This document shows, piece by piece, positions 5,290-30,900 of a stretch of DNA of 64,000 nt (its first letter is position 1; each line of letters starts with the position of its first letter). Source of the stretch: Pezizomycotina sp. ARF18 (lineage: Eukaryota; Ascomycota). The notes below the pieces were generated by a model that was given only the letters and a program-made list of their open reading frames with translations, was not told the origin of the DNA and did no database searches. The translations under genes were made by a program, and so were the position numbers. Location of the stretch: positions 1-64,000 of the forward strand of contig AZLU01000015.1 of the NCBI GenBank assembly GCA_002224055.1, given 5' to 3'.

Positions 5290-8200
5290 GTGACTTCTAG
5301 CTTGCTCAACAAGGCTATCTGCGCATTTAGCTTCCCTCCTGATTCGGCTAACGTGGTTTGTCAGCCGATCAGGAGTTTCCGGCGAAAGGGCACTGGTAAG
5401 GCTCTACCCACCGGCTCTAGCACGCCTGCGTCCGGCGCCGGTCGCATCGCCAGGGCCGCGGCCATTACCGACGATGGTGCGAATGATCCCAGGGTATCTT
5501 GGGATTGAGTCTCCTCTACTCTCCTTCAGAGCCTTCGACCGACTTGATCTTCGTACACGGCCTCGGCGGCGGTTCTCGAAAGACATGGAGCAAATCACCT
5601 TCTTTAATGCACTACTGGCCGCAGGAATGGCTTCCCAAGGACCCTGTATTTAAAAATGTACGGGTGCACAGCTTCGGGTACGATTCAGACTGGGCAAAGT
5701 GGAAGGGGGACTGCCTAAACGTCAATCATTTTGGTAAATCGTTACTAGGTGCTATGAGCACGTCACCATATCTTAACGATGCTGAGAATCCAGTTCCGAT
5801 AGTGCTCATAGGGCACAGCATGGGAGGTTTAGTCATCAAGAAGGCGTATATCTTAGCAAGGCAAAATAGAGCGTACGAAGCCCTAGCGAAACGGATTCAT
5901 ACTGTCTACTTTTTGGCTACCCGCATCGAGGTTCAGATTCGGCGAAGCTCTTGGGTAACATCCTTCAGCTCACCTTCTCTGCGCGAGCGTACGTCACGGA
6001 TCTTGAAAGAGGCTCCGCGCTATACAATCTATCAACCACGGATTTCAACAATACTCGGCGGATATAAACCTGTGGTCACTTTACGAGACTCAAAAGGTGA
6101 GCGTTGGAATATTCAGTACGCTCATCGTTGACCCGGAATCGGCCGTCCTCGATACCCCGAAGAGAAGCAAATACCAGTGAACGCTGACCACCGCTCGATC
6201 TGCAAATTTGATACACCAACAGACCCAAAACTACCTAATCCTTCGCAATGCCCTCGCCTCAACTGTGAAAACTATCTTCAGTACAGGTATGATCCCACCT
6301 CAGCTATTAAGGATCGCACTAAGTAAGCAGCAGAGCAAACCTCGAAAGAGAAGATACGGCGCAATCAGCTCGCTTGTCTAAAAGACTACTTGGGCGCGCC
6401 TGAGGTACCAGAGGACGACCTCGCTGCCGTCGATGACGCACGTTTAACCGGGACTTGCGAGTGGTTCTCGGCAAGGAGTAGTTACATAGATTGGAAGGAT
6501 TTCAGACCAGACGCTCCAAATATACTATGGGTAAACGGAAAACCCGCGACTGGAAAGTCTGTCCTAGCGGGTTATGTCATCGGACAGCTGCAAAAAATGA
6601 ACGTGGACTGCAGTTACTTCTTCTTTAAGTTCGGGACCAGTCCAAGTCCCGCATCAACGCCTGTCTCAGATCCCTAGCCTTCCAAATGGCTTCGGTTAAT
6701 GTCCAAGCGCGAAAAATGGTTCTGGAGATGCAACAAAATAACATCACTCTTGATGCTGATAATGAACGCACAATATGGCAGAAACTATTTGCTTCTGGAA
6801 TTTTCCAAGAAAAGCTTCCCAAGCAATATTGGGTTATCGACGCCTTAGACGAATGCGTGAACCCGATGACCTTTTTCAACGTGGTCCTAGCAAAACTCGA
6901 TAGAGCGATACCGTTACGTATCTTGATTACCAGTAGGGACGCTCCAGATCTAGAAAAGCAGTTTCGGGGTCTTGGTGCAGACAACCTTAGATCTGAGAAG
7001 ATCACAATCCTAGATACACAACTCGACATGAAGCTCTTGGTCGAGCAAAGGGCGGACTCCCTTGCTGTGGAAGACGGAGAACGGCGACGACTGCTAGTGG
7101 AAAGAATTCTTGAGAAATCCAAGGGATCATTTTATGGACGGTCATGGTCCTTGCGAATTGTCAAATACTTACGGAGATAAGGAAATTGACCAAGTTATCG
7201 ACGAAGTCCCTCGAGGGATGGAACCATTCTACCAAAGATCACTTGACACGATGTCGAACGCCAGACATGGTCAGAAGTTGGCAAAAGCAATTCTCGTCTG
7301 GACAACATGTGTAACAAGGCCGTTGACTGTGAGCGAGCTTCAAGAGGCGCTCAGACTAGACATTAATGACAACTTTGCGAAATTAGATGAGAGCATTGCC
7401 GCGCTTTGCGGCCATTTTGTTACCGTTGACAGGTTTCACAAGGTGCAAATGATCCATGCGACAGCGAGGGAGTTTCTTTTGAATGAGGATCTGAAATCCG
7501 ACTTCGCCGTCAAGAAAATGGAGGCGCACACGCGTATTGCCAGAGCTTGTCTCAAATATCTCACTGGTGAGGAGATGCGACCTCCTCGGAACAGCAGACG
7601 TCCGGCGCTCACTAGGAAAAGAGCAGAAATTTCTCATTACGCCTGCTCAGCATTTTCGTACCACCTAGCCAACGCCGATCCAGTGGTGGATGATATCTTG
7701 TCCCTTGTGGAGGATTTCTGAGATCGAATGTGCTATCTTGGATAGAGGTTGCCGCCCGAAAACGAGATCTCGGTATTTTGATTCGCGCCGCAAAAGATCT
7801 GAAATCATATCTCAGTTCACGCGCTGCGGGCGGCCGACCTTCGGTAATGAGATGCAAACGATCCGAGGTTGGACGACCGACCTTATGCGGCTCGTCGCCA
7901 AGTTCGCCAATGCGCTTATAACTTCGCCATCGGCAATCTACGCGCTTGTCTTACCGCTTTGTCCCACGGACTCTATTATATACAAAGCTGCAACCCAGGG
8001 CGAAAATTATTAGTATTAGGAGCCTCGACGCCCAGTGGGACGATCGGTTATCTTGTATGCACTATCGCCAGGACCAAACGAGTGCCGTTTGCTATGGGAA
8101 AGAACTTTTCGCCGTCGGCCTTTTTACCGGAAGTATAACTCTATATCACGCAACGACCTGCCAGGAATTCAAGATCCTTGACCACGGCGAGCCTGTTAAG

Positions 8201-10096
8201 TTCCTCCGGTTTAGGCGCAAGTCAGATTTAATGGCGTCTTGTGGAATGATGACAATCAGGTCTGGGACATCCGGACGGGGGACCTTGTTTATCAATTCAA
8301 GGCCCCGGAACGGCCCATTGATCTCGAATTTGACGATAACATCCTCTTAGCAGCCTCTCGTAAGAACTATTTAGCAGGGTGGGATCTGGATAACCACGGC
8401 GTCAAATGTGCAGACATGCCGTGGACGAACTCAGGAGAAGATACAAGCACGTGGCACTTGGTACACCGTGTGCTGCCGCAATCTCCACTAGCCACAAAAT
8501 GTTGGCTGTCGCTTATGCGCGACAGCCGATAATGCTTTGGGACCTCGAAGTCGATGAATATTACGGCAGCTGCGGCAGAAATGTGCATCCTGTAACCGCG
8601 CACGTAGTCACCTCGCTTGTTTTCCACCCTAACTCAATGATTAGGCTCCTTGCTGCATCTTACCTCGATGGTATGCTCGCGCTCATGGACCCGTTTGATG
8701 ATCATATTCTGGTTCAGTTTCGTGGGAATGCCATAATCTCGCGGCTAGTCCGGACGGCCGCTTCCTCGGCGGCGCAGCCGGGCCGACAATACACGTCTAC
8801 GACTTCGAAACCCTTAAACTTGTTTACCGAGTCAAGGCCTCGAACTCCTATATTAAGCAGCTGGCATTCAGCGAAGACGGCTTGCATATTGTCGACATTA
8901 GGGGGTCTCAGTGTAATGTTTGGGAGCCCGCTGCCCTCTTTGGAGGCTCCGTAAGTGACGAAAGTAGCGAAGTTTCATCGGGCTCGATCGTGGACGCAGT
9001 CGCAAGCGATGCGGGCGTCAAAACCAGCGCGTTGGCGTTGCAACCCGAGGGAGAAGTCATATTCTGCGGCAAGAGCGATGGTTCTGTTTCCATCTACGAT
9101 CTCAAGTCCGGAAACCCAGTCCGAGTGCTCTATTGTCACAAGTCGCGCGTTCGCAACCTTACGTGGTGGTCAAAAAGCGCAATCGTCATGAGCGTGGATA
9201 TTTCCAATGCAATCTACGCATGGAAGTTAAAGAAAACACAGACCGACGGATGGATGCCCGAAAAATGATACTTCAGTCTCGCTTATACGGCGGACACTCT
9301 ATTATCCAAGTTCTACAAGACGAAGTAACCGGGAAATTTATCCTATCGACCCGCGAAACAGACCATCTCTGGAGCATTAACGGTGAGGAAGTCAACCTGC
9401 GGGCCTACTCTGATAAACCGCGAGTTCGAAGATGGCTCCAGCATCCGGATCTCCTCTCCACTTAATTTCCACGGATGGAGCGGTAGCCCGCATCTATTCA
9501 TGGAGCGACTTGTCTGAAATCGCAAAAATCGACCTCGGCACAGACATAACGGGACTGCAAATAAAGAGTTGCATTCCCTATAAAATTGACCAATGTACGC
9601 GGATAATACTTGAGTTTTCTGAACTGGACGGTGCAGCAGCTACACGCGGTCTTCATCTATTTGACGCGTCGTTTCTAAATATAATGAATTTCTCATTGGT
9701 TCACGTGAAAGAGCGGGCGCCACTGCTTCTGAAAACATTTCTGAGGAGGATATCGCCGCGAGTCTAAAAGCTTCAATAGCACTCTATGGCGCACAGCTGG
9801 TGACCGTAGCTGATCGTGTTGCTCATATAATCAATATTCTTGATTCAGGGCGCGTCATTTTCCTCGACAATACTTCATGGGTTTGTTCCATGGATCTCCG
9901 TGAAGTAAGAGGTTCGTCTGTATCTTACTTGAGACACTTCTTCGTACCCTACGATTGGTACTCCGGAACGAGAGATATCGTCTGCGCAGCCACGCAGCGA
10001 GACATTGTCTTCGCCCGGAATGACGGTGTCGCCATCATTCGAGATGGACTTGAGTATGTAGAAAAGGTTAACATACGTACGGGAGAAGATTCCTAG
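5290..10096 (+). CDS. STAND/NLR-type receptor: alpha/beta-hydrolase (SesB-like lipase) - NACHT - WD40
   Basis: A host non-self-recognition type receptor of roughly 1500 codons. Domains in order: (1) an N-terminal serine hydrolase at about 5507-6290, with LLYSPSEP, the oxyanion-hole motif FVHGLGGG, the nucleophile elbow IGHSMGG and a following HRGSDSAKLLG block, as in SesB-like lipase effectors; (2) a NACHT domain at about 6390-7180 with Walker A GKPATGKS, Walker B YWVIDALDEC and the sensor ILITSRD; (3) a helical/winged-helix stretch at about 7110-7720 (SELQEALRLD, MIHATAREFLL); (4) a WD40 half at about 8000-10090, with repeats such as CGKSDGSVSIYDLKSGNPV and QVWDIRTGDLVYQF. A short intron is likely near 6282-6330. 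The fold and motifs are conserved throughout, but the locus as given is broken by about a dozen frame changes; it is either a recently disabled allele or affected by assembly indels. The start is uncertain because the first residues are not conserved. Confidence 0.8.
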
Positions 10097-12390
10097 GGCA
10101 TATGGCGACCTGTCTGCCTATTAATCGTACCCACTCATAGAGCCTTTTTTGAAAATTTACCTTCTAGTCGTATATTTATGTGTGTATATCACAGAGGAAA
10201 CATTCAAGGCACGCCCACGTTTCCCGTAGCCCGCTGATACCGATACGCTCACTCGCTGCACAGCTTCCGCGACCAGCCGATATCCATAAATCATGATACG
10301 GGGCTGCGCCGTAAGCCGCCGACACTGGCACTGCCAGTAGCGGCATGCCTCCACGGCCTGTCAAAACGCAACTGCCAGTTACGGCACTGTGCTGCCGGCA
10401 ACTGGCATTGGTTCGTCTACAGTGGTACGGCCTCCTCGGACCACCGACACCCAATACCTGCGCACTGGACGGCATCGTTCTAAAAATATATTTAGTTAAA
10501 CTTTCACCCATTTATGTATTTCCTTTATATATTATAAGTTTTACTTAATAATAATAATCATATATGCCTGTTTTTACCTCCAATTGATACATAGAACTAA
10601 AAATCTTCGGAGGTTCTTGTTGCGGACTGGTTAGTACTGTGTAAAATAGACTAATTTTATAAAAAAAAGTAACTATTAGAATTTTGTTTCACTAATTATA
10701 ACCATAAGATCAAAAGTCTCCAAATTTTCAATCACGAACCCTTTTTACCCACCCGCTGGTATTCCCCTCAACCAACAAGCATGTGACGCTATTCACAATT
10801 GTAAAATGAGCGAGAATCTCCTACGAATTATAGCTGCAACTATAAAAAAATTCGAGAAAGGAGGAAAAGAGGAAGATGGTCTTCATATTTAGCATAGCCA
10901 AGATAGCAGGCTCGAATGAGCGGGAAACATCCTAAGACGAAGAGTCGAGCTATAACAAAAATACATTTAAAAAAAAAAGTAAGCCCAAAACTCGCAAAGC
11001 CTACGCTACAATGTGGAATGTTCGCGAGTTATATAGCAAACCAAAATAAAAATTGACTAGAAGCTTGTAAAGGTGAGATGAGCCTCTTGGTCAAGTGAGA
11101 ATGAACGAGGACGAATGGATATCAAATCAACCCCAACCACGAAAGTTCACAGATATCTTCGCATCTAAAAAAAACAGAAAAAAAAAAACTATACTTGAGG
11201 ACCAATCTTATACGATATCGGACGAAACCGTTATCTGTGTTTTTACTACTCGAATATACGACGAGCTATACATACAAGTAGTAACAGCAACGGGCGCGCG
11301 CTACAGTAAGAAAGAAGAATAGCTAGAAAACAAAGAGATGTACCTCTACATCTTTTTTAGCCAAGAGGGAGGATGCATGGATAGTAATCGAAAGCTAACT
11401 AGGAAGACTTCACCACTGCCTTCCTTCACTATAAAAGCCTACAACTCTGAAGAGAAGATTGTCTTGTGGGTGGTATACGTCGTGAAGGGAAATCGTCGAG
11501 CTTCCACCTAAAGATACAAGGCCATTAGAAATTTGCTCCAAGAGCGGGCCCATCTCACATTCCTTCTATCTTCTGGAGACCGAGATCACCTACTGTACAT
11601 ACATTGCAAATAATCGACACCTACTCTATAGGTGTCAATCTTCGCATTGGAGAAAAAGTCCGCTTTAGTATCCGCAGCCCTCCTTTCCCTTTCCCAAAAA
11701 CGTAGGAATCAAGCACTGGAGCATAAAGTACTAAGTGCCCCCTAGAAAATCGAAAGCTAGCCATGGAACTGACTACACCACACTAGCTTAAATAGTCAAA
11801 GAATTTCGTCACCCTAGATACGACAGTCAGACCGTTCTTTCCCTAAGACACTAGCTCGGAAACGCTAAGTAGCACGTTTTTACTACCCAGCGTTCAGCAA
11901 ATTATACTTCGTATTATATAAGAAGTAGGTCCCCGTGATATCCACTAGGAGTTTTAACTAGAGGACATATTACGTTGAAAGAGAAATAATTAGTAGTGTC
12001 GACATCAAATTGCCTTTTGCTGGGTTTTCAACGAGGTTATAAGCTATTCGGCTACGCTCGAAGTTCCGCCATCTTAGTCCGCCATGCTGTAGAGTTATAT
12101 TGGGAGGCGTGGCTCAAGTGCTGGGAGAGCGTGAAATCAGGGAGTACTGATACAAGAATTACTTATTTGTTCGGGCTCAAGGGACTGCTTGTAAATAAAC
12201 GATGCTTACCAGTGGTACAGACGTTGACCATAATAAGATGGAGTCGGTGTCGAACGTATAACTTTGGTAAAGTTCAACGAGATCTAGCAGTTCCGCGCGA
12301 TAACCTGTCTTTGCAGACGCCGGGGAGGCGGGATTTATAACAAGAAATCGAAGGAGATGATAGTAAGTTGGAAAAGGAATATTCAGCAAC
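10097..12390. other. AT-rich intergenic stretch downstream of the receptor
   Basis: No gene is supported. The first 350 bp after the receptor stop are GC-richer and contain the short foldback listed separately. The rest is AT-rich with A-runs near 10967 and 11168. The 75-codon frame at 11095-11322 and the 114-codon frame at 11996-12340 have no recognisable family features. Confidence 0.4.
10326..10407. repeat. Short foldback with two copies of TGCCAGTWRCGGCA
   Basis: TGCCAGTAGCGGCA at about 10332 is nearly repeated as TGCCAGTTACGGCA at 10373. The second copy is followed by an inverted partner ending AACTGGCA at 10407, so 10373-10407 can fold with an 8-bp outer stem (TGCCAGTT/AACTGGCA), an inner CGGCA/TGCCG stem and a short loop. 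The first copy overlaps an 11-bp palindrome TGGCACTGCCA. It lies about 280 bp past the receptor stop, so a 3' RNA structure or the end of a small mobile element are both possible. Confidence 0.5.
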
Positions 12391-15300
12391 GTTGATACTA
12401 AAATCTTTTCCCCCTGAACGTTCAGTGAGAATTATAGGCTATCTGTCAACCCTTTGACCGCACAGCCTATACCGTAGGAGCGACTGGAAGAAGAAACGCG
12501 ATAGATGTTGATGAAAAGCTACGGCATGCCAACGTCTACTAATACGAAAGTTTTATTTCCTAACTCTTCGAGTTGAAGTGACTGCGTACGAACAAATTAT
12601 GTTGTACCGGTGACCCGGACCTCCATTCATTCACGATGAAGGAGATGGAACCGAAGCTGACACAGAACTGATAAAGAATTGTCAGTGACGATTCTGAGCG
12701 AGATTTGGCCTTGCCGAAGAACATCTACGTCATATTCACATTTAGGAAAGTGAAGAGAATATTGGCAATAAACTTTTTTTTTTTCTCGGGTAGAGATTGC
12801 CTGATATGAAGGTCTCTCTTAAATGATGACAGGAAATCAATAAATGTCCAGCCACGCTCCCATCTCCGTAAACGAAAATACCGTACTGTATAGGACAATA
12901 GGACAAAGGTATACAAGAGATCTCGGAGACTCAAAGCATAAAGAACCTCTCAGACGAAGGTTTCCATTGATTTCAGGAATCAGGTGATCTACTTAAAAAC
13001 GACTGCCGCTTAACATGTCGTCACGAAGGGCAGACCATAACGAATGAAATGGAATCGCCGCCGGAGTCGAACGCGCGGTGTTGATAAACTCGGTAATCGC
13101 ACTTCTGCACGATACATTTTATTTCGCAGAAGGCTGATCTGGGGAGGTGCACTATGAAGTCAAAAGATGAGGCCGACCCTATGATAGATTTTAGGAGAGA
13201 TAGCGCATTTTCTCCTGGTACTATAAAGTTTACTGCCCTAACACCAACGTGGGAATTGGGAAACTATCTACGTTTAAAGCACTAAGTTCTTAACAAAGAG
13301 AAAAATAATACCGCAGAAAACAATAGAGGAGAGATGACTGCGACGGGTACTCGAGGATACAGCACGGCGGTGACAAACTTATCAAGAAAAGTTTCAGCTA
13401 TTCCAATAGAAGCGAGGGCATTATAAAAACACTCACAGTCAAGAAACATCGATATGCAGTCTTTTCTCGTGGTTACCAGAAATCAAGATACATCGTTCCT
13501 TTTAAGAGTTTCGAAACAGAATCAAGATATCGATAGGCGTTGCATGTTCGGAGAGAAATACTCCCGGGGCACCGATATGAAGTTTATTTTCATCGATGTA
13601 AACGTTGAGAGTTATGAAACTACCAACACCGAAGGCCGTCAGGGGAAAGTCAATATTTCAGTTGAATGCACCTCCAAGAGGTGTGATGGTATTCTGGGAG
13701 GTACATTCTACGGAAACACGCCACATGAAGGACTATTTATATGAAATATTCTCTTAGCCGTTTGAGCCGAGTTGGACGTCATGAAACAGTCTCGAAAACA
13801 ATCTAGTAAAGAAAATGGTATACCCAAGAAATTACTATCCTGTTATAATTACGTAAAAAAATATTTCTAGAAGAAATAAAGAAGAGGGTATAGTTCGTAT
13901 CTCTCCCCTCATTATCTTACAGCAGCATTGATACCAAGTTCTTAAACACGCCACCAGGGAATGATAAATAATCCACGCTTAAAGCACCCGTCAGCTACGA
14001 GCACCATATATTAGAGGAAATCAGAAGGAGCCAGGATAAAAAGAGATATCACCGGTGCCACAGCAGATAGCTTTGATATCAATGGCTCTTTTCCCCTGAA
14101 TTATTCGAGTTAGGGTATATAAACCACCCACACTTAAACCGGTCAACGAGGAAAACCATATTGTAGACGTATGGAAGAGAAGTGGTGATAGCTACCAGAA
14201 AACAACGCCCCTTCGTTGACCTCCGATACACAGGACACTTTTCATTTGTTTGGGTCCCAATCGTCACTGGAATATCATAAAAAGCCTCGACATCCAAGCG
14301 GAGCTATAATGCCGGGGGAAAAGGGGCTACTGTTCTTTCGTAATTACAGGAAAGGATGCATACATTATTAATAATTTTAAATAGGAATGGAGAAGGCACA
14401 ATATCTATTTTTTCCTCTCGCTAACGTTTCCCGGCAGACGCCATATCGAATCCATTGCCAAACCTGACGTTCAGTTCCGATAGATTACCCGCGCTCAAAG
14501 GCACCCTTCAACTAAATATATCATATCTTAGTAACATTCAGATGAGTTAGCACAAAAGAATACTTAAAAATGAATGCCACAAAAGCTGGGAAATATCGAT
14601 ATGAAACTTCACTTTTTTCCTCGAATTTTCAAGCGGGCACTTGTATTGCCTCCGTGAAAACTCAACACAAGAGGGGCTACGCTTCATATGACACATTTGG
14701 AAGGGAAAAAAAGACCATAATAAATAGAGATATAAATTCGATTTCGCCAGCATTGATATCAAGTTTTTCCTCTCGAGTTATTCTATCTATCAGGTCGATA
14801 AGTATCCACGGCTCAAGATCTCGAAGGGTCGCACCATACTGTAGATTCAGCCAGAAAAGAAGAGGATGATAGCTACTAGAAAACACGCGCCGCCGTGTTG
14901 GCCGCCAATAAGAAGGGATTTCTTAACTATTCGAATTCAAAATGGGCAAACATTACAAAAAACATCGCAAATCTTGCATAGCGAGGCAAAAAACACCCCA
15001 AAATGATCCCCCCCCTCCCTTTTTTTTTCAAGTAAACTTCTAGAAGCAGGCCACATCGATACTTTCTCTTGGAGACCGTATGCAAGAGCTATAGCAGTTT
15101 GCCAGGAGGTCAATATCCCAGTGGACATATACTCAGTTTCCTGAAAAATATCCAAGCGGGGAGACCTTTATAACTCCCTCGCCGCTTTAAATCGTACATT
15201 GAGAAAAAAGAAATATTACAAAGTTCTTTTCGATTACGAATTGAAAGAGGAAGATTATGGTAAAAATTTCAAGAATTATTCAAAGGCTGCGATATTAACA

Positions 15301-18050
15301 ACAGAGCTTTTCTTCTTCCTCAGTGGTTTGGGGCCGAGCGGGGTTATTCGATGAACCGTGAGTTCTACGAGAAAACCACATATCGTAGAGACATCTGGAA
15401 GAAGTGGGATAGTACCCTGGGCGACGATACCACCTCGGTGATGACTGATACCAAAATATTTTCTTTACATTTTCGAACCGCAAGTTTGACATAATAAAAG
15501 GCCTCGGGAAGTCTACTAAAACCGTACACTAAAAATTATTCTGTTTTTCCGTGATAAAAAGGAATGAGTACACGTTGATATCCTTTAAAAAAATGATCTC
15601 GAAGGAAAACAGCAATAAGTTTTTTACTTGCCGTCAACGTTTCACGCTTGCCTTGATAATCAAAACTTCTAAAAGCAAATGACGAAGGAGTTATAAATCC
15701 ATTAGCATTTAAACCGTATCAAGCGAGATAAAAAGCATATCTAGCTTTTTCAGATTAAAAGCTGAAGAAGCCCTTGAGGATACCACGGCGATGCGTGCGA
15801 CGATAATCACAAACATTTTCCTTACCCATTTCGAATCCACGTGGCGTCCGTCCCCAATCATCACCTTTCATACCTAGGTTCTCATCAACTATGCGCTATA
15901 CTGATGATACATCTGAAGGGGAAGAAGGGGATTAGGGTAAATATCGATAGCTTACTTGCCACCACGGCTGGTACCGACACGCCCTGGAGATATATCTGTT
16001 TCTTCAGTTTGCTTTTCACGTAACGGTGCGGGGTCGTTTCATAAAACGATTTAAAGTCGAAGGCTGCGCAAGCCTAAAAAAACTTTTTTAATAATCGAGA
16101 AGAAATCGAAAGAAAGACAAATAATAAAATGAGATAGCGTACAAAACCACTTTTGCTGATACGAAAGTTTCTCTTCAACTGTTTTCATGTACAGACCCGG
16201 AGGTCCCGTATAAACAGTCTAACCCTAAAACGTCACGAACCAAACTCGCATACTTCAGCCGTCACATTCAAAAAGGACACCCATGCGTAATAGACGCCGG
16301 TAAATACTTTCCCGCAGCGGCTATCTGATACTAAAAAAATTTTCACTTGGTTATATCGAACGCCGGGGGTGATTCATAAACATCTCAGATCTTAACCGGC
16401 GTTTATAAAAGGAAGCCCATACCAAACGCGATGGTCACCAGAAAAAAAAGCCAGCGTTCCTGATGTTTATTTATTACTTTTTCATTCAAACTCGCCTTCG
16501 TCTATAAAGTAACCAGTTTTGTAAAATTCATCCAGTCTAGTTGGAGGTTTTCGTATACGAAGCTCTTAGCGCATAACGAGGAGCTCAAGCCAGCCATAAT
16601 TATGAACAAACATGTAACTAGTCGAGAAGTCAAGCTATGATAAAACGAAAAATACCAATAATACTCATATGGAAGCTTGTCCTAGGTTATTTATTCTCAA
16701 GGGTGTTTCCCCCGGGAAGAGTCATGCCGCTGATAAACGTTTCGGAGAGGACGTTCATGATAAAACAGGGTAGTTAAGTGCCGCACAAAGCTGTAATGAT
16801 GTGAACATGTTCTACCCTAAAAAAACGTTTTCAATCACCGAACCCCTATAAACAATTTACCATGGAAAACTGAGAACAAAAAGCGACATACTTCAAACAC
16901 CGCACTCGGAAAAAGGAAGGACCGACCATGAATTTATGATAAATTCGCCACATCAGCGACTACTGAGACAGAAACTTCTCCGAGTATTCATAAACATGCG
17001 CGTCTTACCCAGTGGCTAGAACAAGGGTTCATAGCAGGCGAGATGATCATCAGAAAAAAAAAATAATCGAGATTTGCTGATGTTTGTCATTTCTCGGAGC
17101 TACTGTCCTCCCGTAACCAGTTTCGTAAAATCCATCCAGATGAGGACTTATAGATTAAATACACTTAAAAGCCCCACTCAACGAAGAGCCGTACCGTCGA
17201 TAGCTCTCTAGGAGAAAATTGCTATGACAAAATGTTGAAATATGAGTACGGTATACCCCGCGATGATATGAAAGCTTCCTCTTGAAGCTGCTGTCTCAGG
17301 TACGGCCTCGGGCCCTTCTTATAAACAACCTGTGCTTAAAAGTCGCCAAGTTAAAGAACAAAAATTAATAAATCGGTAGAAGACCCCATGATGGAGATAC
17401 GTCTGGGGCGGTGGGATGCCGATATCACATTTCTCCTCTCGAAGATTGTCTAAGACTACCGACATTGTATAAACAAACCTTACACTTGAAGACCGCAAAG
17501 CGAATAGAAAACATACTCCAAACGGTGGCCGGAACGAAGAGTGTGATAAAAAAAAAAAAAAGAAAGATTATGAGTTACGCTACAGTCGTGGCGGAAAGAT
17601 ACAAAAGTGTTTTCTCTTTTATCGCAGGCGAGGCTAGGTCTATAGACTGACGATCTAAAGACGACATAAATGAAGCGACGGGGATCATGATACCAAGCCA
17701 TTAATGTATCCTGGTGGAAAAATGAGCCATGGTAAACCTAGATAACCACTGTAGCTGGCACTGATATGCCCCCGAAATAGAGATTTTCTCCAATTCTTCC
17801 ACCTACGATCCAGATCTTCTTCATAAAAACAACTTAAGGCTCACAATCTACAAAGCGGACAAAAAGCATACTTGATAAGAATTCGAAAAGACACAAGATC
17901 AAACAGAGATATACGTACGAAGCGGCTACTACTGATATGAAGCTTCTCTTGGATTGTTCACTGGATCGGGGCTTCTTCATAACAATCCAACCTTCAAAGG
18001 ACTAAACTCCACATACTTCAAACGTCGCATTCGAACCCCCCCCCCCCCCA

Positions 18051-18081
<31 letters not shown>

Positions 18082-18400
18082 GACGTTGAGCTATAATAAA
18101 TCCATTACATCAGCGACTACATACCGATACAGAAACCCCTCTGGGGGCTCATAAAACCATCCACGTCTTAACCCGTTGGCCCGAAGAAAACACCATAGCA
18201 GACGCCGTAAAAAAAAAAACCAGAAAAAGTCCGGAGTCGCGAATACCACGCTAGCATTCAATTTGTATCTTCGTTATAAAAGTGACATTTTTTATTTTCT
18301 GGTATAATTGCCTGCGATGTTTTACAAAGTTTCTCTCACGATGGTGATACAATCTTTTTCTCTTTCCCCCATTCTATATATCCCACCCCTTCCTCCCTTT
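12390..18400 (+). repeat. Highly diverged tandem satellite-like array, plus orientation, mean period about 161 bp
   Basis: Short anchors recur in a fixed order. One anchor is GATAY followed by GAAR-TTTCTC (at 12394, 12541, 13930, 14075, 14598, 14755, 15447, 15577, 15802, 16158, 16327, 17265, 17421, 17763, 17934). The next is ATAAACAAYC then CTTAAA (ATAAAC at 16210, 16376, 16848, 16990, 17321, 17469, 17823, 17979, 18151). A third is GAAAACCATAC..GACG and then an A-run. Counting the wider gaps as two or three units, 16210 to 18151 fits 12 units of about 162 bp. Single steps range from about 130 to 225 bp. Units share only short words, so this is an old or fast-drifting array and ordinary self-comparison at high identity would miss it. 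No coding potential is visible inside it. Confidence 0.7.
18036..18077 (+). repeat. C14-A28 homopolymer block
   Basis: Fourteen C followed directly by 28 A, lying inside a repeat unit after the CATTCGAA phrase. Similar blocks in the opposite orientation (T-run then G-run) occur in the right-hand array at 30135-30155 and 42334-42363, so the C/A block appears to be part of some units rather than chance. Confidence 0.8.
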
Positions 18401-18428
18401 TCCTTCTTCCTTATATATATCTATCTCC

Positions 18429-20190
18429 TTAATCCAACTCCGCCTCATCCATATTCCTCAAGAAAGTCCAGTACCACTTCACGGCATAAACATGCATATC
18501 AACATCAATAAACTCATCGACCGTATGTATATTCCCCATCTCCATCGCGCCCCTACTCGGGTTAAACCTGAAAATATGCCGTGTCAACTGCCAATAATGC
18601 TTCGTATCCGTCCACCCGTCATCAATCCCGGCGACACTACAACGTCATCCGTAGCTAGCGCTTTCGTAGTCCCAGATAAAATCCCGTACGGAGTAATGCC
18701 GGCGATTGAAGTGGGCGTTGTAGGTGCCGGGTTAAACGCGTTCGAGAGGATAGGATAATACAATTCGTCGCGTGTTCGGGGCGGAGGTGAAGGGGTATAC
18801 GGTGAGGTTATAGAGCTTCGCGACGGCTCGCGCGTGGTTCTCTTGGACGCGCTGATGTCGTGCAACGAAGAGCCGATGTTTATGCGATGGTTTAAGGTGG
18901 CGGTGACGTACTCCGGTAGCGCGTTCGCTTTTACGCCGCCGGCAATGACGTCTGCGGCTACGGCGGTGGTCATGAGGTACTTCACGAACGGCGAGTGTTT
19001 GGCTGCTTCTTCGGCTAATGCGTCCCTCGTATTAGAGTCTTCTTCCTTTCCTTTAACTTGACGCCGGAGGCGGTCCTTGAGTAGCCTTCGGAGGACTTTA
19101 GGAAAACGAGGGGAGTGGGCGGCGCCGCAGTACAAGTAGTGTAAGTACGGGTTCGCATCGTGTAACCGCGGCCTGTACGGATTCGCCTCGTTGAGTCCGA
19201 TGAGCTGACTCATTACTCCGATAGCCGTATGCGACGGCGGAACGGAACTGTGGCCGCCGGGCATGCGTATTTCAACGATCACGTCTGCGTATCCCTTCTC
19301 TCCAGTTCCGGGCGCGGAGAATTGTAACCCCCAGTCTTCTCTAGCTCCGGGTCCTTCGTCGACGATCACGGCGACGGAATCCCTCCCGTATCTATCTTCG
19401 AGGAATTTACCGAGGTGTCTAGCACCCCTCGGCCCACCGATTTCCTCGTCAAACCCGAACGATAGTATAATAGTACGTCGCGGAGTAAACCCCGCGGAAA
19501 TTAACATCTCGAGCGACTCCAGCTGCGCGATGATGTTATTCTTGTCGTCGCTGGACCCGCGGCCCCAGACGTACTTCCCGTCGTAGTGCCCCGAGAACGG
19601 CGGGTGCGTCCAGCTCCCCTCCGTAGTCTTCGCACGGGAACGACGTCGTAATGCGCCATTAATACCGTCGGTTTTAATCCCTATCGCTACCCTCCCACGT
19701 ATACAATAGCCCGTGCTCGTTCACAGTCTCCGTCTTTAGTCTCTTATGAACGAGGGGAAAAGTATGTTTCAAATACGCGGCGAAGTTGTAATAAACCTCC
19801 CACCTCTCATCCTTATCATCACCAGATACCGGTCCCATATCGTCGTAACTAACCGTGGGGATCTTTACGGCGCCGGAGAGAGCACCGACGGAGAGATTAC
19901 GGTACTTTTGCGAACCGATGACGTTGAATGTTCGTCGAGGCGGGGCGTTGTGACGTGTGGTTTAGAGGGCGGACTTGCGGGCATTGGTGCGAGAGGACGA
20001 ACTCGAGCTCGGCGTCGTCGGTGAAGACGGAGAGGAAGTCGACGTACGGGCGGAGGAGGAGGATGAGGATGAACAGCCAGCAGGAGAGGAAGAGGACGAC
20101 GCGGAAGGGTGTGGCGCGGTAACCCCGGCGGGGCAGGGGGTTGTCCGGGGGCGGTTCGGAGGAGGGGAGGAGTTGGGCCTTTTCGGACAT
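18429..20190 (-). CDS. M20 family metallopeptidase, carboxypeptidase S (Cps1)-like, membrane-anchored
   Basis: A vacuolar-type zinc carboxypeptidase. The minus-strand ATG at 20190 begins MSEKAQLLPSSEPPP, followed by a single membrane segment (VVLFLSCWLFILILLL, about residues 28-45), as in yeast Cps1, which enters the vacuole as a type II membrane protein. Downstream are the expected motifs: LSGAVKIPTVSYDDMGPV, LLYTWEGSD, VLMAHYDVVPV (metal His and Asp), WGRGSSDDKNN (bridging Asp), LSFGFDEEIGG (catalytic and metal Glu), VDEGPG, GGHSSVPPS, APGLM-type VSPGLMTG, and the C-terminal HYWQLTRHIFRFNP and NIHTVDEFIDVD with the last metal His. The stop TAA is at 18429. The span equals about 587 codons, the usual family length, with no intron needed. 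Five or more one-base slips interrupt the frame (for example in the MAHYDVVPV region and just after SPGLMTG) while every catalytic residue is kept, so I expect the real gene to be intact. Confidence 0.88.
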
Positions 20191-22441
20191 CGTGGAGTTT
20201 CGTAGCACAGATCGTTTGTTGTCTCTTTTGTTGGTGATCGTTAAGGTGAATTGTTTTGTTGCTTTTTGTGTGGTTAAGTTTGAGTTTTTCGTGATACTCA
20301 AAAAAAAGAAAGATCTGGAGAGAAATAGGGGAGGAGGTTGGGGAAAAAAAAAAAAAAAAAAAGGAATATTCCACTTTATAAGGTTACACTACAGTCTACA
20401 GATGACAGCTCAATGATCCTCTCTTCCTCCGTGCCCAGAATCCTGAAGATCTAGATACGGAAGAATTACAGTCCATTAATGGAATAAAATAGCTCGTATC
20501 TACTCCTTTAAGCAGTCAATTGCGTCGTGGTTCTATTGCATTTACTTGGGAATTTCAGCTTTAAGTTCTCAGCTCCGGGCGTCGCATTTATAAGACAATC
20601 AAAGAATATTCCGTGGAAGCCTTGGGGGGTTTTATTGCTACTGTATGGTATCATCGACAAGGGGGGCGGGGAAGCAATTCGCAGATTCGCAGGCGGTGAA
20701 GTCATTATTGGCTTCTTCTTCATGCGCTCTTAGCCTCCCAAGCATGGTAAATCCCGGGGCCGGGTGCCGTTGCCCGTCTCGGCGTGTTCGCAGTGCCAGT
20801 GCCGTATTAAACCGACAACAAAGCTATTGTTCCCAACCAACCTCGCGTTTTCCCCCGATCCTCCAAAAAAACAAAAAAAAAAAAAAAATAAAATAAAAAA
20901 TAAATAAAATAAAATAAAAATAAAATCGCGAAAGTCACATGTTCATCCAGAAAACCCCGTGATCTTGAGTGTTTAGGATCATCCTTGAAGCCGTTGGTAT
21001 CAGGGTTCATTTATTCTGTGCTACGGTTACGCTAAAGCTTGTTCAATCCGTCAAGATACAAAACAAGCAAGACCAAGCTCAGGATGGATTACAAAGTTTT
21101 TATAATTTTCACAGTGAACCGCTCAATGCCGACGGTGAGTAGGGAGGGGGCAACAGGACGGCTTAGCAAGCGAACCCAAGGCTAAAAAAGCAGAAAAAGG
21201 CAAGTGGAGAAAGAATTGATTCAGTCCTCGCTCACTCGCTTGGATAATGATTCATTCAGAGGCGAAAAAACGGGGACCGGTGACGGTGACCGGTCTCGAT
21301 CTCGGTGGTAAAAAATAAGTGTTAGCTTGGGGGCAAAAACCAAATACGAATCGCTGTGAAATGTTGTTTTTTTGGTGATATGGATAATAGGGATAATGGG
21401 GATGTGTTGGTGGTGTGGGGTAAATGAACCACTTTGGCGGTATCACCAGATCGGCATCTCCAGCCGTTTATCAAGTAAAGAGATGATATTAAAGGGAGGG
21501 GCAGTAATATAGACAAGAGTATTGACATATGAATATAGAAGACACCGCTCATCGCCGCTTTAAGGGAATAAATAGAGGCACTGGCCTTTATAAGCAGAAA
21601 CAATTGCTCATAACATACGAGGAGAACATTGTATCCGTATGTATGTTCAGACGACTCTAGATCAGTACCGTCTTGCAGGAGTTGACAGCTCAGAGCGGCA
21701 GCATCCGGCAAAACAAAACGCTCAGACCCTTTAATTCTGTGATCGACAGTATCCCTATCCCTGGGAATTCTTTTGTACGTTGATTTATAAGTTCCTTCTT
21801 CCCCAGGTTTCTTCTCCGTACGCTCGTAAAAACATCCCGTAATTTGCATAATAGATCATCTTCTACACATATAATTTAATATAATTAATTAATTAATATT
21901 AATTGATTTCCTTTCCCACGTTTTACTTAGCGTGTTTCAACCATCGTTTCCCTGTCATCTCTCATCTTCGTAATCTCCGTTAACCCAAGTTCCCCAAGTG
22001 TTCCCCAAGCTGTTCCTCTCTTGCAGAATAAGTAGGATCACTTGCAGTAAATATAGCGTGGCAATACTTACTAGTGGGGAGAAACGTTTTTGGTGCATAT
22101 TTACGATTTTTTTTTTTTTTTAATTAACTTCTAGACTAGCTGATCCTGTACGGTGGGATTTTTGTATTATTGTTAATTGATTTCATTTTGATTTTTCATT
22201 CAGCCCTCTTAACCATTCGCCTCCGCTCCATCCCATCCCGTCCCCGTATATATTGCTGCTTTTGTTGCTACTTTGGCTCTTTCCTTTTTATATAGCGATA
22301 AAGCCCCCCTTTTTTTTCTAAATAATAAGTTCACGAACCTTCCATTTGTCCTCTTTCCTACTGTCTTAAAAATCTCCCCTCTGTTATCGCAGAAGACAAA
22401 AATACAACAAAGAAGCTAGTTACATCCTTTCTCCACGAATC
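20191..22441. other. Divergent intergenic region of the gene island
   Basis: The M20 and SPRY genes point away from each other, so both promoters lie here. A TTATAAAG box on the minus strand near 20377 could serve the M20 gene. The 160 bp before the SPRY-gene ATG are pyrimidine-rich with TATATA near 22249, a common fungal promoter layout. A TTAATTAATTAATATTAA-type AT palindrome lies near 21880-21905. A 175-codon minus-strand frame at 21322-21849 is not recognisable. Confidence 0.45.
20865..20925 (+). repeat. A-rich (TAAAA)n microsatellite
   Basis: An A-run grading into TAAAA/TAAA units. Similar tracts occur at 38255-38276 and 63852-63901. Confidence 0.85.
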
Positions 22442-24999: not shown

Positions 25000-27900
25000 A
25001 ACCGGTTTGTTCTAATTAAACAGACTGAAAATATGTAGAAATAGAAAAAAAATGGACTAAAATCTTTGATATCGACGACGAATCATTTCCCCTCAATCTG
25101 TTTAGTGATCTATATGAGCTTACTGTGGTGCTCATGTGTAGAGGTCGGAGTATAGGTGGAGAAGATAGTTCTGGTTCGTTGGAACGAGAGACTGGTATCA
25201 GGCGTTTTCTTGCCGATGGGAAAAGTTGGTTATCATTTTTGGATCCCTGCAAGTCAATCCGGCCTATGTGGAGGATCCGGTGATAGAGTTCTCGTGGGCC
25301 TCGTATGCTATCTAAATTCCGTTCTTGGAAATATCGTGTTTTTCTCGAAGGGAGCTTACGTTGGTCTAGATATATGCTACATTCTCCATCGTGAAGCTTT
25401 TCTCTGTTGTATCAATTGATCCTTTTCCGCCACACGCTTCCTGAGAATAAGATTAGTAGTAGTATGAAAGAATTATCGAACTTTTGAGAATTTTTTACGA
25501 TCAACGGTTCGATAATACTGCTGAGAACTAGTAGACAGCGGACGTAAGTTTTGATTAAACGACATATCATGATCCAATCTTTGTTCGGGTTTTCACAGCT
25601 TATGAAGACTTGGTCTATTAGTTCTGATAGAAACGTTTCTATCCATTGAGGTTGTCAACCAAATAAGCCCCCCCCGTTTTTACTTTAAGAAATACCAGTA
25701 ATTTCCTATCGTTCGTAGGTACGTAACAGCATTATCCCACAATCGCGTATTTTAACCCCAATTGCATCTTATCAGTTAAGGGACGTTGTATTCCGGTCGA
25801 CAGCGAAACATATGATACGAAAACGGAGTATTGTTGATATCTCTAGTTATCACTTCTCGTCGATCTATTTTTTTTAATATCCTATGCCTCTCTTGCTCTT
25901 TGTTCTAGAAGTAGATGCGGTCAATAGTATGGCACGAGTAGTTTTGCGCAAATTGAGGCACTTTGGGATCGTTGAGAGCGAGGCCCGATATGAAACTTTC
26001 TCCGTAACTTTAGTTATCGCCTGGGGAGAACGTCCCCTGTCCATGGTTTGTCTATGGGCGGATGGCATCAGAGAGCTCCAGGCTTTGTATGTCCCTTGTA
26101 TCCTTTCTCGGAGTATTGCAATTCGTCGACGGAGCTCGCGTACTCCAGATACGAACTGGAAACATTTCCTCTCTTGCCTCCTTTTTCTTTCTCTTTCTTG
26201 TTTTTGTTTGAATGGATAAATAAGCTGTATCGTCCATCGCTTCTCAGGTGGTAGTGAAACCCGGCGGGAGATTTTTTTTTTTTTTTTTTTATCGGTGGGC
26301 GTCTTCTAATTAGCTTCGTTTTAATTTTATCAATCGGTGATTTGCGCTGCGCTTCCTAATAGTACGGTTGTAGTATGAGAGGGCAAGGGATGCGTCGAAT
26401 TTGAGAGTGTCAAAATCAAACTTTTTTTATAACAGCGTTAGCAGACAGCGGATGTGACGTAACTGGGTGTTTATCGTTGCCGAAGGGGGTCTTCGCAGTT
26501 CAAGTCTATGTTGTCGAAAAGGTGCAGGATAGGTTTTCATGATCTTGCATGCGACGGATGTTTCCTCTTGTAGATCTCTGCTGTGCGGCGGGTGCTCGGT
26601 TTTACCCAATTATGATTTCAGTCCCTAAAGCGTCTTTTTATTCTCTTTTAAATGATCGACGAATAGTATCTAGCGGCATCCTTCTATTAGAGAATAATGA
26701 CTCTATCGTAAGGTCTCATTTGACGGGGGAGTATTTCTTATGACGCCTTCTGGTATCTACCGTTCCTATATCTCTCGCGCTCTGTAAACGCAGCCGTAGC
26801 ACTGCTATAAGCAGTGATATTGAGAGAACGTGAAGAGTTTGAAACAAAGTTTAGGTTATTGTTATCGAAGCCTATCATGATGCCTATAGGCAGCGAATGT
26901 AGACTTTGCGGAGGCAATTATCGTTTTTCTCGTCTTTCGGTATCTACGATAGATTATGGTAGGATGTATCGTGGGATTGTATGCAATTGGAGCGCTTCTT
27001 TGTGGAATATATCCTGTAGCGGCTCTAGATGATAGCCATTGATTTTTGTTTATAAGCGGATCACCTGTTTCCAAAAAAACAGAAAAAAAAAAAACGAAAG
27101 AAAGAAAGAAAGAAGAAAAGGAAAAAGAAAAAACTTTTAACGTGTAGTATCCGACGTCTTGAACGTAGCGGATTAGAGAGTAGTGTGACCTTGATTGGAA
27201 ATTTTTATCAATAGAAGGGGATTGCTTTTTTTTGTGCAGCGAATTCTCTATCGTGCGATCCCTCGCCTCGTTGATCAGGTTCGGAATATGAGTTGGTGAA
27301 GCGTTCTGGAGGCAGTTCGGGGTCGTAAGATTAGAGCCCATGATATCACTTGTGTGGTGCGGACGTAGTTTAACTAGTGACTTATCGGTCCAAAGGTTGT
27401 GGTTGTAGTTCGAGTTTGCATCATAGAGTAGTGTAGAATGTATCCGTCGGATTTACGTGCCACCAACGCCTTCCCTATCTATGGAATACCCATTATGCGA
27501 GAGCCGTGTGCATTAAACCCTATACCGCGGAGTCGGAGTTCCTTTCCTTTATTGCTGAAAGGGTTCAATATGTTGTATCAACGGGCACGCATCAAAGAGC
27601 AGTAATTCTATAACGAGGTTTGATAAACTAGGAAAAACACTCTTTCCCCGTTTTCGAAAGCTGTGTTTATGGGTCCTCAACGTATTTTGCTCGATATTTA
27701 GGTCGAGATATAAATCTAGGAAGTGTCTTAAAGAAAGTCTAAAGTTTTCAAATCGTCGGTTATGAGACGAAATGCTCCATGTCCTATTTACGAGCCTTAC
27801 GCAGCGGCTGCGTTCTCGCGGTTAAAACGCCATTCCCGGAGCTTATGGGGGTGATAGCCTTTTCATGATATTGCCGCTATTGGCTTGGGATAACCTATCT

Positions 27901-30900
27901 ATCGGGAGGATCTTGTACGTTCTAGATGTATCATCGAATCCTTTAACCCTGGTTTTATGAAATAGAGGCGGTAACAATTAAAATGTTCAGAACCACTCCA
28001 ATTGATGACGGATCTGGTGGACTACGGGGATGCCGTACATTATATTTCGGTTGGATGTCTCTTTTCAGGGGAATAGAGATGTACGTACGTACCACTTGCG
28101 GTTTGGGATATAGATCCTTCGCGCTCCTCCTCACTCTGATGGACTACGAGTAAGTTAGCTATGAAATGGGCATCGCGCAAACGGTGTGGATGTATGTGCG
28201 AATGGCAGCTGTAAATTGAAGCAGGGCGGGTTTTTCTATATCGCCTCCTGTCGAAAGGATCAAATGATAATCCCTTAGACTTGACGAAAACTTATCGGCA
28301 AGCCTCCTCACCGAAATTTGACTAATACCAGGATCTTCGACCTTTATCGGACGGTCTGCAAAAGGATTTTATTATCCATGGTGGGGCTTTTGTATGGATC
28401 AAAAATTGCATACTGGGAGCACGCTATTGTGCTCTGCCAGGCGCCGTATTCTCTTGGGGACCAGACACTTGTCCTGTCTTTTTCTCGCTGTTTATAGGTG
28501 ATGATAATAGCATTCATTTTAAGCCATGTATGGGTGTTTGCCGCTGGAATCAGTACAGTCTGGTAAGCTTGTCGTAAAGGATCCATCACCCGCCGCGTTG
28601 CAAAAATAACGGAAGACAAAAGAACAATATGAGAGGCGTTGAGCGCGTCTGCAGATTTTCTAGAAAAAATCCTGTTCCCCATTTTCTTCTTTTTATGTGT
28701 TTTGGTGGACCACCGCCGATTTCAAAGTTCTTCTTACGTCGAAAGAGTAAAAAGTTGGCTAATATGGCTTCTAGAAAGGGCTGAGAGGCCTTCTAGGAAA
28801 TTGCAGAATATTTTAACTGCGCTATTCGCAAGCACACAAAGTATCTACGGTCCTAGCAAATCGTTAATGCGTCGTTCGGTCTATCAAGTATTGAATCATT
28901 GATATGTGAACGTTTGGTTTCGCGCCGGGTCGCGTCCATTGCTCTCATGGCCGATATCCACGCGGTTAGGCTTGCGCCAGTGCTATGCGGCGTTGTCTGG
29001 CGCGTGCATCAGGTTTTGTCAGGTGTGCTTGTGTATGGTGGAGTTTCTTCGCAGATAAAGGTCCAGAAGTAGGTAGGTATGATATTTGTTCTTTCATTCC
29101 GCAGGTAATAGGGATATGTGTCGTTACGAGTATGATGGTATAAACTTGAAAACCTTAGACTAGTGAAGTATATTCCATTTACATTTTACGAAATCGAGAA
29201 CGCAAAGTCTCATCTCTTATGAAATTGCGCGAGCTATAAAAAAAAAAAAAATTTTTTTTTGGGATAAAAAAAGAAGAAAAAAAAATTAGAGAAGGAAAGA
29301 AAGAAGAAAAAGAAAAGTCTGCTCCAAATTTTCTATCTTGGCTTTCGTATCGAGTACCGGTTGTATTGTATCTGCGTTTTATAATGGCTTCTCTTTACCT
29401 TAAATGTATCGGTGGTATGGTTTTTTTTTCCTTTTTCTTTTTTTCTTTGAGAGGACTTAGGCATAGACAGTTTATCGATCTATATTAAAATCTTTAGTAA
29501 ATGATTTGAGATCGTGGCTGCTATGGAGGTTTGAATGAAAGAAATTACATATCACATCTTCCAGTCATTAAAGTATGGAAGTTAACCTAGTTCCCTAGGT
29601 GCCGAAAAGCAGTATCACTTTAGCTCATGGCTTTGTTAGACTATGGTGTTGCCGCGTGAAGTTGAACGTTAGGCGAGGACCCTTCGTATTCGTCGTTGGG
29701 ACCAGAGCACGTCTTCTCGGATGCGATCCAATATTCTTTCTTCTAGAAACATCTATAACATGTTTCTTTGTCAAAATACTTTTAAGCGTAGATTGTTTAC
29801 GGAAGCCTGTTGGCTAAGGCAACTCAAAAGGAAACATGATATTGATGCTGGCGATGTTTCGATTATATCTTTGTGATGCCATACATACGGTTGATGAGTT
29901 TATCGATGTGGATATGCGCGTTCACGCTGTAAAGTAAACCTAGACGTTTTAAAAAAAATATAGAGGCGGAGTTGGATTAAAATGTATATTAAAATAGGAA
30001 GGAGAAAGAAAAAAGGGAGGATGGATTTGTGGGGGACAGATGGTATAACCAAGGAGGACAGAACAAGAGACTGTACTCCTACGAGAAGTTTGTAAAACAA
30101 ATCCAATATATCTACATAAACGATATCACTACGGTTTTTTTTTTTTTGGGGGGGGCGAAATATCAAATTGAATCCCTTGCTTTTAGTTTTACGTTATAAA
30201 CCGGCGTATGCAAAAAGAATCATCTGCTATCGTACATTTACTGTACCTATGAGCACCGTTGGCGCCTTGATGTACACGATTAATTTTCATTGATTAAGAG
30301 CTCGTGCAAAAAAAAAAAAAAAACTGATATTCCGCCAGTCTAAGCTGTATCAATTTCTCCACTTCGACTCCTCTATGGGCCGTTTTTCTAGCTACTGTTT
30401 TAAGACGTAGAATGCTTATGATCGCCCTTGATACCACTAATAGATACCTTCGCATGTTTTTGCGTCTGCCAGGGCAGTATAGCTTTAATCCATCTATCTC
30501 ACCCTTTCCTTCATAACGCATCTGAATATACTTTGTCTGTGTTAAGCGCTTTAAGGGTCGATTTGTCTATGAATCCACTGACACGACACACTTAGGAGAC
30601 GCACTTCTCGTATCGTGACTCGCCTTTATCCCGTAAATCTCAGTAATTATCACATTGCCTGATCCTTCCTGATGCCATTGAAGTATACACATCTTCGTAG
30701 AAATCTTAGAGTGTTTATGAGCGATACCGAGTCTTGTACGTGAAAAAAAAATTTGATAGAAGCTTTAACATTAGGAGGTATAGATATGAATGATATCGCA
30801 TTTCCATCTCAATGTCTCTCATGGCTCCAATACCCCCAAAATGCTATCCGCAGCGTAGCTCCTCGTTGAGGACTTCAAGCGTGAATAGTCCACATAGCTA

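Follow-up and report, generated by a model that had tools for sequence, protein, structure and literature searches.

Two inverted arrays of a diverged repeat

We analyzed 64,000 nucleotides of DNA from Pezizomycotina sp. ARF18 (contig AZLU01000015.1, positions 1 to 64,000; hereafter the window). The window contains two arrays of a satellite-like repeat of about 162 bp, array A on the plus strand and array B on the minus strand, which face each other across about 11 kb. An original prediction, made from the letters alone, had placed a single array with a period near 161 bp at 12,390-18,400; the array itself was found, but its span is rather about 11,994-18,235. Array B, the higher-order structure and the inverted duplication described below were all absent from that prediction. 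The arrays and the units referred to in the text are as follows.

11,994-18,235, plus strand: array A, about 38-40 head-to-tail units of about 162 bp (posterior-decoded intervals; ab initio score 1058 bits)
29,344-34,077, minus strand: array B, about 29-30 units, in which the repeat of array A is read from the opposite strand (held-out score 233 bits; ab initio score 903 bits)
16,129-16,294, plus strand: unit A26, an example from the forced tiling, GATACGAAAGTTTCTC ... GTATAAACAGTC ... CATACTTCA
17,904-18,090, plus strand: unit A37, 11 units after A26 and among its closest relatives
14,041-14,195, plus strand: unit A14, closest relative of B9 in array B
32,437-32,596, minus strand: unit B9, partner of A14, with the exact block ATAAACTATCTACACTCAAA at 32,508-32,489

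Each array was decoded as several pieces with gaps, and forced tiling with a profile hidden Markov model (HMM) gave 40 units in 11,990-18,290 (array A) and 30 units in 29,330-34,090 (array B). An extension of array B to 35.4 kb is not supported, as 34.1-35.4 kb scores at the level of shuffled sequence. The ordered anchors and the step of about 162 bp that had been proposed are present in the sequence; for the 12 steps counted by hand at 16,210-18,151, the forced tiling gives 12 units from the start of A26 (16,129) to the start of A38 (18,091). Single-unit steps were measured with a 161-column model, which favors such steps, and only those of 110-220 bp were counted. In array A the mean step was 162.9 bp for the GATA anchor (standard deviation 13.5; 17 of 23 steps), 165.9 bp for ATAAAC (14.1; 19 of 25) and 161.9 bp for CATA (11.8; 16 of 24), and in array B it was 150 bp for GATA (9 of 17). 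The single-unit means of the ATAAAC and CATA anchors lie at 160-166 bp. The remaining steps were mostly multiples, where an anchor went undecoded. A scan of model lengths on array A showed a broad optimum over shuffles at about 150-175, rising again at 324, and does not fix the 162-bp period to the base.

The column consensus of the 70 tiled units is ....gA.A.a..c...a...g.ga...ctGATA..AAa..TTcTctT.a..t.tT......a.A..c....g.....t.ATAAAc.atCtac.cttaAA...t...cAac.a.aa.a.ccATAct..aga.g.a.tt.gaagaa...a.....a.g.tA.a, with about 73 bits of information per unit, training fit included. Runs of at least five A are concentrated at unit columns 140-150 (13%) and 110-120 (9%). The GC content of the arrays (0.41-0.42) is close to that of other gene-poor parts of the window (0.42). 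At 18,037-18,077 of array A, a C-run is followed immediately by a 28-base A-run.

Common origin of the units

An nhmmer profile built from 6 plus-strand units found 7 more matches at E < 0.02, of which two lay in array A and the other five at 29.7-33.1 kb on the minus strand. Iteration gave 18 matches, 12 on the plus strand (13,567-18,208) and 6 on the minus strand (33,049-29,741); the rest of the window had no match at E < 0.02. For this analysis we wrote a cyclic profile HMM that includes a background state. Seeded and trained on the plus array only, it gave 233 bits on the held-out minus strand of 29,300-34,800, whereas 60 dinucleotide shuffles reached at most -7.4 bits and the wrong strand -8.3. 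The original prediction had named an HMM trained on shuffled DNA as one of its refuting comparisons, and here the real model surpassed it: three models trained on shuffled plus-array DNA gave -12.4 to -7.7 bits on the held-out stretch, and one of them gave 7.6 on the real plus array.

The result did not depend on hand-picked anchors. Cyclic HMMs started ab initio from random chunks gave 1058 bits on array A (11,990-17,490) and 903 on array B, whereas 11 shuffles gave 474-567 and the nine other tiles 498-614; the highest of these tiles were the two between the arrays (608 and 614; the second overlaps the first 150 bp or so of array B). In cross-array scoring, all eight A-trained models gave array B 54-276 bits and all eight B-trained models gave array A 13.7-226 bits. 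In the controls, the best of five shuffles per model was -15.3 to -5.0, the wrong strand gave -15.2 to -5.7, and the nine tiles, on both strands, gave at most 12.5 bits. Non-cyclic (linear) profiles gave 5-9 matches in the held-out array and 0-1 in 20 shuffles each. Those in held-out A were specific but too sparse for a period (root-mean-square residual 43-50, chance 46.8), and in held-out B the residual was 21-28. With up to three mismatches, the pattern ATAAACWATCYACRCTYAAA, which was derived from the same data in which it was counted, has nine matches in the window against 0.09 expected, and all nine fall within one or the other array, in the expected orientation. An alignment of 28 units by MAFFT was poor and was not used. 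Thus, the held-out, ab initio and cross-array HMM scores, together with unit tiling and unit similarity, support the proposed common origin by tandem amplification, and the arrays show the head-to-tail repetition of a non-coding monomer that is expected of a satellite.

A pattern scan of IMG/VR returned two stretches that scored -13.5 to 3.9 bits with the array model and were taken as chance. Outside the arrays, a joint model decoded three faint stretches at 2,292-2,858 and one 24-base stretch at 25,979, all on the plus strand; such traces could be stray relic units or local composition. A weak direct similarity between 11,102-11,308 and 2,321-2,500 (nhmmer E 0.001) is possibly low-complexity A-rich sequence.

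Unit divergence and higher-order structure

The mean pairwise identity of 38 well-covered units was 0.451 within array A, 0.455 within array B and 0.453 between the arrays. It was independent of distance (adjacent units 0.455, distant units 0.451). Neighbors are therefore no more alike than distant units, and the arrays are satellite-like and not a classical, homogenized satellite. Ordinary repeat finders miss them because the copies have little in common beyond a few short sequence blocks; Tandem Repeats Finder, which like raw autocorrelation tolerates indels poorly, had no unit near 160 in its list.

Multi-unit similarity was nevertheless observed. The diagonal correlation was 0.186 for A-A (maximum of 500 permutations, 0.169) and 0.121 for A-B (maximum, 0.098). 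Of the 15 lags compared, lag 4 showed the strongest enrichment in array A (z 4.4) as well as in array B (z 2.7), and array A had further enrichment at lags 7 (z 3.2), 11 (z 2.5) and 3 (z 2.2). For example, A25-A26 resemble A36-A37, and A31 resembles A38. On the A-A and A-B correlations and lag 4, blocks of several monomers are repeated, and there are signs of a four-unit higher-order structure. From the unit identities, which are equal within and between the arrays and independent of distance, we infer that the units were amplified before the inverted duplication took place and that homogenization has ceased.

Inverted duplication with the end of an M20 peptidase gene

The following features lie at the borders of the arrays or within array B.

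11,596-11,865, plus strand: outer flank of array A, which matches 35,657-35,403 in inverted orientation (nhmmer E 2e-7 and 3.7e-6)
35,403-35,657, minus strand: outer flank on the side of array B, inverted match to 11,596-11,865
18,281-18,532: inner junction of array A, where the minus-strand M20 peptidase gene has the end of its coding sequence and its 3' flank (match to 30,130-29,879 at nhmmer E 4.6e-16)
29,879-30,130: copy of the M20 3' end within array B, a fragment with in-frame stops and array units on both sides
18,584-19,720, minus strand: reading frame of an M20-family peptidase (Pfam Peptidase_M20, E 1.3e-14; M20_dimer, E 4.3e-6)

At the inner junction, blastn gave 74% over 146 columns for 18,388-18,530. 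Both ends of the inverted segment match, and the order of the units in A and B is collinear: the chain score was 201, compared with at most 188 in 200 permutations and 127 for the reversed order. Since both ends match in inverted orientation and the units are collinear, the array and the adjoining gene end would have been copied together; judged from the sequence, both arrays lie in an ancient inverted duplication, which also copied the outer flank and the M20 3' end. Around A14 and B9 there is a weak blastn match as well (13,959-14,138 with 32,677-32,489; 67%, E 0.081). Three-frame translation showed that peptidase-like sequence runs on in other frames to about 20.4 kb, and the M20 similarity across several frames of the minus strand at 18,400-20,400 is compatible with a pseudogene, introns or sequence errors. 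Also between the arrays, 26,916-27,254 has a weak direct similarity to 20,703-21,038 (nhmmer E 7.8e-5).

Block-like conservation within the unit

The consensus of the slower-changing blocks is about TGATATGAA..TTTCTCTT, TTCATAAACAATCTACGCTTAAA, CCATACT..AGA and an A-rich GAAGAA stretch. Column information is clustered, with a lag-1 autocorrelation of 0.46, a standard deviation of 0.303 and a best six-column mean of 1.03; the maxima in 69 neutral simulations were 0.25, 0.262 and 0.92, respectively. Of these simulations, 24 started from a known ancestor, 25 were seeded like the real data and 20 started from the observed consensus with transitions, 16 of the latter being GC-biased. The A+T share of the consensus was 0.75 in both the high- and the low-information quartiles; AT bias therefore does not explain the blocks.

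Unit pairs were compared in two ways. The 11 most similar pairs, less the pair at rank 10 (A18-B26), were identical at 347 of 468 positions (74%) in columns that are informative in the other units and at 282 of 444 (64%) in the least informative third. In 11 of the 15 collinear A-B pairs (four with an excess score below 12 were left out), identity was 75% in blocks and 57% in spacers, compared with 66% and 57.5% in random A-B pairings and 58% and 56% with shuffled partners. These results support a slower change of the blocks, but they do not prove selection, because the pairs were picked by similarity and the blocks steer the alignment.

Origin and possible function of the arrays

Common origin, the two inverted arrays, their collinearity, the higher-order structure in array A and the block-like conservation are directly supported by the observations above. 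The explanation that we favor, and consider probable, is an ancient, no longer homogenized satellite-like array within an inverted duplication, with slower-changing blocks that possibly bind protein. A non-coding monomer of about 162 bp would have been amplified head to tail, with some multi-unit duplications (about four units, about 650 bp). A later inverted segmental duplication would have copied the outer flank, the array and the M20 3' end, giving A on the plus strand and B on the minus strand. Without recent homogenization, the units would have drifted to about 45% identity while a few blocks changed more slowly. The mode of action proposed as most likely is that a sequence-specific protein would have bound, or would still bind, the blocks at every nucleosome-length step; the array may thereby have acted as a chromatin or spacing element. 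ATAAACA is similar to the binding site of forkhead proteins, and GATA to that of GATA factors. The usual GATA-factor site is GATAR, from which the GATAY found here differs. A bolder form of this explanation is a fungal cis-element array of a type that escapes standard repeat tools, in which nucleosome-spaced, strand-oriented putative protein-binding blocks were kept by selection while the rest went unhomogenized, and which outlived its own similarity and an inverted duplication; we regard this form as rather doubtful.

Several observations weigh against the favored explanation. The autocorrelation peak near 161 that the original prediction called for was absent from the raw sequence of 12,390-18,400, where the best lag was 218 (0.275; lag 157, 0.274), below the 0.288 reached in 50 first-order Markov simulations; this failure is likely due to the spread of unit length (11-14 bp) and the low identity. 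Position weight matrices of a single block from the other array showed no periodicity above shuffles in either direction, with 3 matches (1.45 in shuffles) from B to A and 10 (0.85) from A to B. The B-B diagonal correlation was 0.044 and not significant. One B-trained model gave array A only 13.7 bits, little more than the 12.5 bits of the highest-scoring control tile of the A-trained models (at 23-29 kb). On the plus strand, the joint model gave an unexplained 6.7 bits at 2.2-2.9 kb (best of 40 shuffles, -1.3) and 10.6 bits at 23.3-29.3 kb (best of 15 shuffles, -13.4). As for the blocks, only some of the simulations had a likelihood matched to that of the real data, and none included uneven indel rates along the unit; at lag 2, one of the 69 exceeded the observed autocorrelation (0.279 and 0.244, respectively), and at lag 3 several did. 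The contrast between block and spacer was reversed in 2 of the 10 close pairs, and the spacer identity of the collinear pairs, no better than that of random or shuffled ones, means either that the spacers are saturated or that some pairs are not true counterparts. Finally, 10-bp phasing of AA/TT/TA in the arrays was no stronger than in shuffles, so that no rotational nucleosome signal was detected.

The main rival is a wholly dead satellite, which had the same duplication history but was never functional, and whose blocks come from uneven indel or mutation rates. We rate this as a real possibility, though not the leading one. It agrees with the lack of homogenization, with the position of the units among disrupted reading frames and with spacer columns near the shuffled baseline. 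What speaks against it is that block conservation exceeded all 69 neutral simulations on three measures, with uneven indel rates outside these simulations, and that the A+T share is equal across the information quartiles. Another rival is a chromatin element at which heterochromatin or a centromere is nucleated, its inverted arms enclosing a core as in fission yeast or Candida tropicalis. Such an element would fit the nucleosome-like step, the oriented blocks and the inverted arms round about 11 kb; furthermore, a supplementary legend of PMC4741521 gives most C. tropicalis arms three tandem-repeat regions. The core here, however, contains the M20 gene or its relic (18.4-20.4 kb) in place of a gene-free center, genes or gene relics are found next to the arrays and in the interval separating them, the arms are diverged, and neither a signature of repeat-induced point mutation (RIP) nor the 10-bp phasing was found. 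We consider such an element unlikely. The pericentromeric or heterochromatic role raised in the original prediction gained no support from these data, and a centromere in particular is unlikely because of the M20 gene or relic between the arms and the divergence of the arms. Helical quantization of the steps was likewise not detected (|r| 0.07-0.24 in 36 typed steps). A RIP-mutated transposon relic was rejected, with neutral indices (TpA/ApT 0.90 and 0.97; CpA+TpG over ApC+GpT 1.00 and 1.01).

The other rivals have less to recommend them. If each unit were a transcription unit with a conserved upstream block, that is, a small non-coding RNA or promoter module, oriented and spaced blocks with variable stretches between them would be expected, as observed; but there was no Rfam match at the gathering threshold in the window (one at E 4.8 in array A, with a setting applied to A only), and the mean folding z was 0.02 and -0.19 on the two strands (58 of 70 units), which leaves this origin quite improbable. 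In alifold no structure was obtained, but the shuffled controls likewise gave 0.0. A tRNA-derived short interspersed nuclear element was rejected, with no genes by ARAGORN and three B-box matches where 3.9 are expected. Inverted arrays flanking about 11 kb recall a foldback-like mobile element with long inverted arms of tandem subrepeats; however, the arms include the outer flank and the M20 3' end, which suits a segmental duplication better, and no transposase was found in the 40 frames submitted to Pfam from 114 frames of at least 90 amino acids, so that we think this origin very unlikely. Descent from a protein gene whose repeated domain had about 54 residues has little to be said for it: 162 is a multiple of three and a few units are open in one frame (by eye, unscored), but the steps and the distances within units fall into all three classes modulo 3, conservation has no period of 3, and the eight array frames scanned had no Pfam match below E 0.1. 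The meeting of chance words in AT-rich DNA, to which the simulation-level raw autocorrelation would correspond, is refuted by the held-out HMM tests and has next to no probability.

Comparison with known systems

Like alpha satellite and the plant centromeric satellites, as generally known and as described in a passage of PMC4053949, the arrays have a head-to-tail non-coding monomer of about 160-170 bp and some multi-monomer structure; unlike them, they comprise only about 70 units in the window, with about 45% identity and unhomogenized neighbors, and are set among genes. The same paper considers that tandem repeats may serve to phase nucleosomes and names three yeasts without high-copy tandem arrays at their centromeres. 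Among filamentous eukaryotes, Phytophthora parasitica has the satellites PpSat1 and PpSat2, and in one oomycete satellite family, by context PpSat2, the monomers average 142 bp according to PMC7290008; that family has 426 members and belongs to an oomycete and not a fungus, and it is set beside the present arrays by description and not by sequence. The regional centromeres of Schizosaccharomyces pombe and C. tropicalis share inverted arms round a core, and the C. tropicalis arms include some tandem-repeat regions; according to PMC4741521, however, the C. tropicalis arms are highly homogenized round a non-repetitive mid core, whereas here they are diverged tandem arrays and the core has the M20 gene or relic. 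In the architecture of their arms, the arrays also resemble foldback elements. These are mobile elements whose inverted arms are built of tandem subrepeats; unlike theirs, the arms here include part of a gene.

Among the matches listed in a search of titles and abstract openings of the open-access literature, there was no description of this repeat. The arrays show that tandem repeats can hide in seemingly empty fungal DNA once they have diverged beyond the reach of both Tandem Repeats Finder and autocorrelation; a cyclic HMM with cross-array scoring is a simple way to look for them. Should selection be the cause of the block conservation, the blocks would offer immediate candidate sites for a DNA-binding protein and for the phasing of nucleosomes, and tests on fungal satellites would become possible in places where transposon relics are thought to be dominant.

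Other features of the window

Gene-poor DNA at 41,481-47,626 contains old direct repeats that form a set of their own, with nhmmer E values as low as 1e-19.

41.5-42.6 with 43.5-44.6 kb: direct repeat pair, lag about 2.04 kb
44.8-45.1 with 46.3-46.6 kb: direct repeat pair, lag about 1.5 kb
45.3-45.9 with 46.8-47.3 kb: direct repeat pair, lag about 1.43 kb

AT skew was negative or zero in all 28 one-kb bins of 24,001-52,000, of which array B explains only part, and was mostly positive at 1-18 kb. At 5,499-8,951 on the plus strand there is an NLR-like gene with PGAP1-like hydrolase, NPHP3_N and GPIID_WHD domains in separate frames (Pfam), which together with the M20 peptidase indirectly support a fungal source; downstream of these domains, a very weak beta-propeller match (E 0.02, far under its cut-off) was observed.

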